Positions 1,285-37,401 of a DNA stretch of 64,000 nt are shown here, piece by piece. The position numbers and the translations under genes are program-made. This DNA is from Lacipirellulaceae bacterium (GTDB lineage Bacteria; Planctomycetota; Planctomycetia; Pirellulales; Lacipirellulaceae), in NCBI GenBank assembly GCA_040218535.1, contig JAVJRG010000008.1, positions 292,320 to 356,319 on the forward strand, in the 5' to 3' direction. A model generated the notes under the pieces. It ran no database searches. It was not told where the DNA came from and saw only the letters and a list, made by a program, of their open reading frames with translations. The first letter of the stretch is position 1. Every line of letters begins with the position of its first letter.

Positions 1285-1348
1285 TAACCCGAAGCGTAAG
1301 CGAGGGAGGGTCGTGACGAGTACTCTCCCTCGCTTACGCTTCGGGTTA
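1285..1348. repeat. Perfect 24-nt inverted repeat (palindromic element, copy 1)
   Basis: Arms at 1285-1308 and 1325-1348 are exact reverse complements (left arm begins TAACCCGAAGCGTAAGC) and are separated by a 16-nt spacer. The same arms with a different 16-nt spacer recur at 14114-14177. This copy sits between the start of the histidine kinase gene and the end of the LptF/G-like gene. It could also act as a transcript-end hairpin. Confidence 0.9.
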
Positions 1349-10679: not shown

Positions 10680-11352
10680 TACGGCGAAGCCGTTACGCCC
10701 TATAGCCCAGGGTTGAAGCGGCGCCAGCCGCGACTACCCTGGGTGCTAGATCGCCCACACCAAAATCATCTACGCCGAAGGCGTTACGCCTACCATGCCG
10801 CAATCCCTCGCCAACGTCGCCATGCATTTGGTCTTCTCCACCAAAGACCGCCAATCATTCCTGGCCGACGATCAAATCCGCGAGGAAATGCACCGACAAT
10901 TGGGCGGAGCTTCGAAAACTCTTTCTTGTTCGCCGATGATCGTCGGTGGCGTCGAGGACCATGTCCACTTGCTAGCACGGCTCGATCGCACGATCACAAT
11001 TGCCGAGTGGGTGAAGGAGTTAAAACGTGTGACGTCACTGTGGATCTAACAAAGCTATCCACAGTACACAGATTTCCAATGGCAATCTGGCTAGGCGCGT
11101 TCTCGGTAAGCCAGTCAGAAACCCCACGCGTGAAACGATACATCGAGAACCAAGAGGAGCATCACCTTGAGCGCGATTTCAAAACCGAATTTCGTTTGTT
11201 GCTTGAGCGTCATGAGGTGCCGTATGATGAACGCTACGTTTGGGACTGACGTAACGCCGTTGGCGTATGATTCACCATGGGTTGTTTTCCCAGGGTAGCC
11301 CCGGCTGGCGCCGGGACAACCCTGGGCTGAAAGACGCAACGGCTTCGCCGTA
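10680..11352. mobile_element. REP-bounded element carrying a dead RAYT transposase
   Basis: The left arm (about 10680-10745) and right arm (about 11285-11352) are inverted copies. Each carries TACGGCGAAGCCGTTRCG plus a palindrome of the type CCCAGGGTTG...GGCGCCAGCCG...CTACCCTGGG. Smaller GGCGTTACG hairpins adjoin the gene at about 10770-10790 and 11249-11262. This is the expected layout of a REP-associated tyrosine transposase (IS200-like) with its REP sequences. A further palindrome, CCCAGGAT/ATCCTGGG, follows at about 11373-11400. Confidence 0.75.
10795..11249 (+). pseudogene. REP-associated tyrosine transposase (IS200/IS605-like), inactivated
   Basis: Reading from the ATG at 10795 gives MPQSLANVAMHLVFSTKDRQ...GGVEDHVHLLARLDR, which contains the HUH-type motif HVHLL and typical RAYT landmarks. 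The frame hits TAA at 11047-11049 (a single change from a Lys codon would repair it). A missing base near 11091 then shifts the frame. The remainder continues as GAFSVSQSETPRVKRYIENQEEHH...YDERYVWD to the stop at 11249, the expected RAYT C-terminus. The intact protein would be about 150 residues. Two lesions show it is decayed. Confidence 0.85.
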
Positions 11353-14066: not shown

Positions 14067-14218
14067 GGCCACGGATTTCACGGATGATTTTCACATTTTC
14101 GTTTCATCAATCGTAACCCGAAGCGTAAGCGAGGGAGAACGCCGGTTGAGGCTCTCCCTCGCTTACGCTTCGGGTTATGATTTCGACCACATCCGTGTCA
14201 TCCGTGAAATCCGTGGCC
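14067..14218. repeat. Nested palindromes: 21-nt perfect inverted arms around a second copy of the 24-nt palindrome
   Basis: Outer arms 14067-14087 and 14198-14218 are exact inverted copies (GGCCACGGATTTCACGGAT...). Inside them, 14114-14137 and 14154-14177 are the same perfect 24-nt arms as at 1285-1348, again with a 16-nt but different spacer. This suggests one element entered another. It fills the gap between the ABC permease stop and the DUF21/CBS gene start. Confidence 0.9.
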
Positions 14219-35545: not shown

Positions 35546-36499
35546 ATGGCGCCACTCGCAACTTCGAATTCTGACGGCACGGTGGGCGGGAGCAAGATTT
35601 CTGCCGGATCGAGCCCGTCGTACCGCAAGTACTTCGAGAAGGGTATCTCGGGTTTACTCGCTGTTTGCGCTGCCGTTTCGATCCTCACAACGGTTGGCAT
35701 CGTGGTCATCTTGTTGACGCAGTCGCTGCCGTTTTTCGGTGAAGTTTCGATTGTCGAGTTCCTAACCGGCACGGAATGGACACCTCTATTCAAGCCGCAG
35801 CATTTTGGGATTCTCCCCTTGGTCTGTGGCACCACACTCGTAGCAGGCGGGGCGGCTCTGATTGCGATTCCTTTGGGCTTAGGAACGGCGATCTATCTAA
35901 GCGAGTACGCGAGGCCAGCGGTCCGCAACACAGTAAAGCCGGCCTTGGAGATCTTGGCCGGTATCCCTTCGGTCGTGTTTGGCTACGTTGCTCTTGTGTT
36001 TATCTCTCCGCTGCTGAGGGGATGGTTTCCTTCAGCGGAATACTTCAACGCAGCAAGCGCGTGCATCGTGGTGGGGGTGATGATCCTTCCGATGGTTGTC
36101 TCGCTCAGCGAAGAGGTGCTGCGTTCGGTCCCGCGATCGTTGAGAGAGGCCTCCTATGCATTAGGAGCAACCAAGTTTGATGTGACCTGCGGAGTAGTCG
36201 TTCCCGCTGCACTGTCAGGTATCGTCGCCTCCTTCTTGCTAGCGATTGCCCGTGCGATCGGTGAGACGATGGCGGTGACGATGGCGGCAGGGGCAACCGC
36301 GCAGCTGACGCTTAACCCGTTGAAAAGTATCCAGACCATGACGGCCTACATCGTGGAAGTGAGTTCTGGTGATATTCCAATGGGTTCCATTGAATACTCA
36401 ACCGTCTTCGCGGTCGGCTTGACGCTGTTTGCCTTTACGCTTTGCTTGAACGTTCTTGCCCAGTGGATTCTCTCACGCATGCGGGAGAAGTACGAATGA
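35546..36499 (+). CDS. pstC: Phosphate ABC transporter permease PstC
   Basis: 317 residues from the ATG at 35546; an earlier in-frame start at 35495 would overlap the hairpin. Six membrane helices and the binding-protein-dependent permease motif [32 protein letters not shown]. Other family landmarks are [21 protein letters not shown] and [13 protein letters not shown]. It pairs with PstA, whose gene overlaps its stop by 4 nt. Confidence 0.92.
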
Positions 36500-37401
36500 G
36501 CAGCCAGTATTCTCAACCGCGTCAAAACTCTCTGGCGGAACATACCAGCGGTCGCCCCTACGCGAAGCTACTCTCGAAGGCTTTTGCCCTGCTCTGCGCG
36601 GCATGCACGTTCGTGTGCGTTGCTACGTTGGTCATGCTGCTTTGGAAGATTATCGAGTATGGCTGGGGTCGTGTGAGTATGGATCTCATCACCGAGTATC
36701 CCTCTTCCACCCCAGAGAAGGCGGGTATCAAGTCGGCCTTGGTCGGAAGTTTGTACCTGATTGGGCTCACGGCGTTGTTCTCGGTGCCCATTGGTGTTGG
36801 TGCAGCGATTTTCTTGGAAGAATACTGCAAGCCGAGCCGCTGGCGCACGATGGTGCAGACCAATATTGCTAACTTGGCGGGCGTTCCTTCGATTGTGTAC
36901 GGAATCCTCGGCCTGGGACTCTTCGTCCGCTACATGAACCTCAACCGCAGCGTGTTGGCCGGGGCAATGACCCTGACGCTTGTGGTTTTGCCGATCGTCA
37001 TTCTGACTGCTCAGGAGGCGCTTCGGGCTGTCCCCGGATCGATCCGTCAGGCCTCCTATGCACTGGGTGCGACGCGATGGCAGACCGTCTGGGGGCAACT
37101 TCTTCCCGCCTCGCTGCCGAGCATCTTAACAGGCGTCATCCTGGCGCTGTCGCGGGCCTTGGGGGAAGCCGCTCCGCTTCTGGCAATCGGCGCTGCAACG
37201 TATACGACATTCCTGCCAGAGAGCATTTACGACGATTTTAGTGTCATGCCACTGCAGATTTATTACTGGGCCGGCCTGCCACAAGAGGAGTTCAAGCAAG
37301 CCGCCGCGGCCGCCATTGTGGTGCTGTTGACCGTCCTGATTTGTATGAATGCTCTCGCGGTTTTTCTTCGCTATCGCTTCAGTAAGCGAATTCAATGGTA
37401 G
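36496..37401 (+). CDS. pstA: Phosphate ABC transporter permease PstA
   Basis: 301 residues from the ATG at 36496 (ATGA overlap with pstC). Six helices, with [21 protein letters not shown] and the EAA-type loop [35 protein letters not shown]. The C-terminus [21 protein letters not shown]...[10 protein letters not shown] is typical. It forms the membrane channel with PstC. Confidence 0.92.

Follow-up and report, generated by a model that had tools for sequence, protein, structure and literature searches.

A dispersed inverted-repeat element of Planctomycetota found inside an unrelated palindromic repeat, and its association with class 3 Y1 transposases

The nested palindrome and its surroundings

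The window analysed here is a stretch of 64,000 nucleotides on contig C8 of the genome of a Lacipirellulaceae bacterium (G000; 5.36 Mb, completeness 95.8%). It contains two perfect inverted repeats placed one inside the other, which an earlier note had described from the sequence and which are both present: an outer one of 21 nt (repeat O, 14067–14087 pairing with 14198–14218) and an inner one of 24 nt with a 16-nt spacer (element A, Table 1). The right arm of O is longer than the left, and its final 21 nt are those that pair with the left arm. The left arm of A is extended outward by TCG, from 14111. The second copy of the inner palindrome named in that note is likewise there, with the same arms, a spacer that is also 16 nt long and another spacer sequence.

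The folding of both A copies in the window is far beyond chance. A single strand of the nested copy folds with −36.3 kcal/mol (z = −12.3 against dinucleotide shuffles), and z is −10.9 against such shuffles for the second copy. Rfam covariance models gave no match at gathering score within the window, and the reading of A as a member of one of these RNA families was rejected.

Two other features of the window were observed. An IS200/IS605-like Y1 transposase gene at 10730–11258 (L012), broken by a stop and a frame change, is closely related to an intact copy, L009, located at G000:C8:260743, and both are framed by a repeat family other than A, CCCAGGGT...ACGGCGAAGCCGT. A arms are absent within about 700 nt of the IS200-like Y1 genes of this genome (L009–L012), and a link of A to these genes, the broken copy in the window included, was rejected for this reason. 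A 59-nt direct repeat with 73% identity (36113–36171 and 37015–37073, 902 nt apart) lies perhaps inside a duplicated coding sequence.

Table 1. Positions of the nested palindrome, its parts and the second copy of element A, in window numbering.
Feature	Positions	Strand	Basis
Left arm of outer repeat O, GGCCACGGATTTCACGGATGA, two 9-nt units CACGGATNN	14067–14087	+	sequence
Right arm of outer repeat O, three 9-nt units, ATCCGTGTCATCCGTGAAATCCGTGGCC	14191–14218	-	sequence
Left arm of element A (REP)	14114–14137	+	0-mismatch match to family arm
Element A spacer, 16 nt between 24-nt arms (20 nt between 21-nt core arms)	14138–14153	.	
Right arm of element A (inverted REP)	14154–14177	-	family arm match
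REP mini-hairpin, CCC-GAA-GC-GTAA-GC-GA-GGG	14117–14135	+	DNA fold, loop-base variability and core beside class 3 genes
Mini-hairpin loop	14125–14128		
Free loop base	14127		
Second A copy, left arm	1285–1308	+	
Second A copy, spacer	1309–1324	.	
Second A copy, right arm	1325–1348	-	

Distribution and variation of element A

The 21-nt core of the A arm, allowing up to three mismatches, has 34 forward and 36 reverse matches in the whole genome, and the reversed control has none. Element A is present in about 38 copies in this genome, nearly all of them +/− inverted pairs, and 22 copies in this genome fit the strict pattern. The gap between the 21-nt arms is 20 nt in 27 of the 35 well-defined copies, 21 nt in five, 19 nt in two and 22 nt in one. 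The earlier note had considered that the window pair might be the only two copies or that spacer length might vary freely, and neither is the case; what is borne out is a family scattered through the genome whose arms and spacing are both conserved.

The arms are far more uniform than the sequence between them, with a mean pairwise identity of 0.942 as opposed to 0.494 for the spacers and 0.374 for the middle of the spacer, where composition alone would give 0.257. The spacers do differ in sequence, as had been claimed, but they are not free, since they share an oriented consensus (GCCACGC...TTTT or AGAACGC...TTCT) that is clear at positions 1–7 and 17–20.

The long near-perfect stem, its strong folding and the mostly intergenic position of A would fit an RNA hairpin selected in the host, such as a terminator, an mRNA stabiliser or an RNase III site, in which the long stem is under selection. 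This explanation is very improbable. Within the 20-nt spacer class only one of 33 arm changes is matched in the opposite arm, which speaks against compensatory selection on the A stem; the 32 uncompensated changes show no trace of selection for pairing once a copy is inserted, and indicate decay after copying. The neighbouring genes are mainly in tandem (19 cases), and convergent contexts are no commoner than divergent ones (four each), so that there is no terminator-like bias and the terminator reading was rejected. The lack of an Rfam match in the window also speaks against an RNA hairpin, as does an orthologous site in a genome of the same genus, where A is missing and the flanking genes are retained. 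The earlier note had attributed the conserved arms either to selection on the hairpin shape or to structure-guided copying; copying that depends on the hairpin is the best explanation, while selection that would act on the long hairpin of inserted copies is not supported.

A single A arm can itself fold on DNA, as CCC-GAA-GC-GTNA-GC-GA-GGG. This fold is weak for a lone arm (−2.4 kcal/mol, no better than many shuffles), and it is the distribution of the changes that argues for a mini-hairpin. Of 27 copies, 11 have a change at the loop base N in the GTNA tetraloop, compared with 22 of 540 for the other positions together (Fisher p = 3e-8), and N is the sole freely varying position of the arm. 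Such variability fits a mini-hairpin made by the half-arm and not the long stem, where N would simply be one of the paired bases. The core of the half-arm, GC-GYNA-GC, is also found beside class 3 transposase genes, and the half-arm mini-hairpin appears to be the recognised unit.

A second, rarer inverted family, B, has the same half-arm plan (CAC-GCA-GC-GCTA-GC-AA-GTG) and is located at L057 2070–2130, G000:C5:470376–470439 and G000:C10:161033–161097; it resembles the repeats adjoining another class 3 transposase (L304). At L124 (6677–6813) three direct A arms follow each other in 33-nt steps and are succeeded by one inverted arm, an arrangement that is possibly a halfway form between an array and a doublet.

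In a scan of one genome per species the A palindrome was found at 120 loci or more (at least 120), and those listed all belong to Planctomycetota and to the orders Pirellulales, Planctomycetales, Gemmatales and Brocadiales; the identity of the arms across these loci, except at N, follows from the construction of the search pattern. Copies of the strict pattern reach 143 pairs in Neorhodopirellula pilleata. Among G000 and 58 relatives the strict pattern occurs in four of the 59 genomes, G000 counted, and the same-genus genome G001 has three strict copies versus 22 in G000. The spacer is typically 20 nt here, mostly 30 nt in N. pilleata, 14 nt in SJ86, mostly 14 nt in MaH-09apr19-81 and 34–35 nt in PL25a_bin.70. 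Spacer length is fixed within genomes and not between them, a pattern that speaks for descent from founder copies more than for a constraint of geometry.

The last point bears on the reading of A as a dyad site for a chromosomal protein, in which the 41-nt arm-to-arm spacing, about four helical turns, would place the two half-sites on one face of the DNA. The near-constant spacing in G000 and the phylum-wide identity of the arms, as searched, are what such a site would show. It is nevertheless scarcely probable, since spacers range from 8 to 36 nt between genomes with the same arms, A is missing from most of the relatives, unlike a conserved host site, and its arms flank one transposase clade.

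Equally improbable is the explanation that the arms are kept perfect by template switching between them (palindrome correction) and not by selection at copying. In its favour, MaH-09apr19-81 carries nine elements with a 14-nt spacer, eight of them near-identical, in which the paired loop position is C/G or A/T and always matches between the arms. A double change in one ancestor, spread by copying, would explain this as well, the arms in N. pilleata vary independently (11 matches, 13.1 expected), and 32 of the 33 arm changes of G000 stand uncorrected. Arm-to-arm correction is accordingly not general. Two of the MaH-09apr19-81 elements (L153 6400–6475 and L154 2064–2139) are identical at all bases compared except the loop position, which is changed matchingly in both arms, A/T in one and C/G in the other.

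Repeat O and the nested copy

O is a repeat of the 9-nt unit CACGGATNN in inverted arms, with about 130 unit matches genome-wide and none for the reversed-pattern control. Its strict pattern is rare elsewhere in the phylum (three of 199 genomes, G000 counted). In the 36 paired O copies that were read, the space between the arms is short (8–36 nt), or is occupied by A (five copies), by B, by a C or D palindrome or by other sequence. O encloses palindromes of the types A, B (AACACGCAGCGC...), C (GAACAGGAGGAAACGGAGG...) and D (GGATGGCCACTCCTGGCCGTC...) at window positions 14067–14218 and at L021, L029, L046, L052, L054, L057, L062, L067, L074, L075, L085, L088, L094, L097, L101 and L108.

The five A copies inside O exceed by about 28 times the roughly 0.18 expected (p about 1e-6), an estimate that takes 38 A copies, about 50 O pairs with a target of about 60 nt each and about 640 kb of intergenic DNA, drawn from 1.19 Mb of genome tiles of which about 12% is intergenic. 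With the expectation nearly tripled, p is 2e-4. This excess is the one feature that a compound element of two nested inverted repeats, A plus O, would account for, and that explanation is dismissed because most A copies lack O and most O pairs lack A, O also encloses B, C and D palindromes or nothing, the position of A inside O differs among copies, and the corresponding site in G001 has an O arm without A. The outer O and the inner A are unrelated elements and not one structure.

The orthologous site in G001 retains the flanking genes and, at the same place, the O arm CCACGGAGGACACGGGT, while A is missing. In the 400 kb of this genome that were searched, both flanks were tightly joined only for the copy at 14111–14180. 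The presence of the O arm without A indicates that A was probably inserted into O, and the simplest history of this copy would probably be that O was there first and A came later. The comparison points to gain rather than loss, although A may instead have been lost from the G001 site. No target-site duplication or exact empty site is readable against the nearest genome, because the two are only about 73% identical. A possible cause of the preference of insertions for O is the exposure of single-stranded loops when the O palindrome is extruded. Nested palindromes can thus arise without any compound function.

Class 3 transposases and comparison with known systems

Only three of 120 related A loci lie near Y1 genes, with about two expected from gene density, so proximity of the loci to such genes is near chance and the informative test is to read the flanks outward from the genes. 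In Planctomycetaceae bacterium ACE_PLA28 (L225) a Y1 gene with an open frame of 179 residues has exact A arms on both sides. Its product, P0001, contains a Y1_Tnp domain (PF01797, 34.3 bits, cut-off 23), and the motifs HVH, WWA and YTTQAQ read from its sequence correspond to the HUH, W[TA] and Y----Q motifs.

A search with this protein followed by flank reading gave 38 class 3-like genes. The inverted core GC-G[CT]NA-GC is present in the expected orientation upstream of 28 and downstream of 30 of them, compared with 6% of random 300-nt windows. In three genomes, ACE_PLA28 (L225/L379), N. pilleata Pla100 (L381) and Alienimonas chondri (L380), a class 3 gene is bordered by exact A arms, and these genes have REP-type hairpins on both sides, the arrangement of a REPtron. 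Together with three genes that have near-A arms they form a clade in which six of six are A-type (SH-aLRT 99), in a tree made by a quick method with no bootstrap, where the mistranslated row L323 stands as a lone long branch. Two more genes outside this clade were labelled A-type by the loose pattern; in each of them at least three arm positions depart from A. Where these genomes hold class 3 genes beyond the A clade, other REPs flank them. In N. pilleata the class 3 tnpA lies amid an array of about 20 A-type arms that recur at periods close to 32 and 65 nt (L381 700–2500), and this gene copy has one in-frame stop.

The class 3 search had no match in three of the eight A-bearing genomes tested. 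A Y1 gene flanked by the same REP, found in the three other A-bearing genomes above, was not found in G000, whose two class 3 genes bear other repeats (CCGAGAAGCGTCAGCTCTCGG at L013, AGCCCTAAGCGTCAGCGCCGG at L015). A is consequently an orphan family here, unless its cognate gene is located in the missing ~4% of the assembly.

The exact A arms at class 3 genes and the uniform A-type clade suggest that A is a non-autonomous element of a class 3 REPtron. The preferred explanation, with a probability of roughly 0.86, is that A is a miniature mobile element of the REPIN/BIME type that owes its spread to a REPtron-type TnpA of class 3, a Y1 (HUH tyrosine) enzyme. The unit would consist of two inverted REPs that form mini-hairpins with a GTNA tetraloop on single-stranded DNA, with a short, weakly constrained spacer copied along. 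The class 3 TnpA would recognise the folded REP arm on single-stranded DNA and move or copy the doublet, as was proposed for REPINs (PMC3116915). Intact arms would be needed in each round and spacers would drift over many rounds: arm identity would persist because a copy whose arms are damaged is not copied further, and spacer length would be constant per genome because the copies descend from few founders. Once inserted, copies would decay. As the cognate transposase in G000 would be absent or placed in the missing part of the assembly, the copies there are probably relics or are poorly mobilised in trans. The copy at 14111–14180 would have been inserted into the older, unrelated palindromic repeat O, hence its nested appearance.

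A bolder proposal, which is unlikely, starts from a 21-nt REP identical over four orders, beside transposases that have diverged to about 55–60% identity. Here one arm would template the other through a folded single-strand intermediate, and the palindrome would be rebuilt in each round.

The kind of element is known, while the A family and its conservation across the phylum seem to be undescribed; no description of the A repeat itself was found in the literature searched. REPs are usually described as species-specific (PMC6006769), whereas one REP arm, identical as searched, here extends over four orders and follows one clade of class 3 TnpA, proteins that have so far seen little experimental study. 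N. pilleata, which is cultured and has 143 pairs and a flanked gene with one in-frame stop, offers a defined enzyme–substrate pair for testing REPIN mobility.

A is similar to the REPINs of Bertels and Rainey 2011 (PMC3116915): it occurs as dispersed inverted REP doublets, mostly intergenic and commoner than singlets, which are decayed in those elements as in A, with conserved ends, a less conserved spacer, a preferred spacing and a single-strand hairpin. Unlike in REPINs, the A arms are perfectly self-complementary over 24 nt, the association is with class 3 and not with a classical RAYT, the arm is conserved across the phylum and no cognate transposase was found in G000. BIMEs and the GTAG/CGTC-tagged REP dimers, whose survey included Planctomycetes (PMC3733652), likewise consist of inverted REP dimers, whose spacers are comparable in length and vary in sequence; unlike the tagged REPs, the aligned A copies have no GTAG or CGTC tag at their ends. 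The subterminal hairpins of IS200/IS605 elements are single-stranded hairpins recognised by a Y1 transposase, which is predicted for A, although A has no transposase gene of its own.

Another close counterpart is found in the class 3 REPtrons, for which flanking structures in high copy number were already noted (Quentin et al. 2018, PMC6006769). As in that description, planctomycete Y1 HUH proteins with HVH, W[TA] and Y----Q motifs are encoded by genes flanked by inverted hairpin repeats, which are present in high copy elsewhere in the genome. The 5' foot of class 3 REPs is given there as CnGA. Several other class 3 REPs show nGAGCC, in agreement with it, and A differs, with mostly CGTA or CATA before ACCC in the aligned G000 copies, where CnGA is not obvious. 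Beyond that work, the repeats flanking class 3 genes are resolved here to the common core GC-GYNA-GC.
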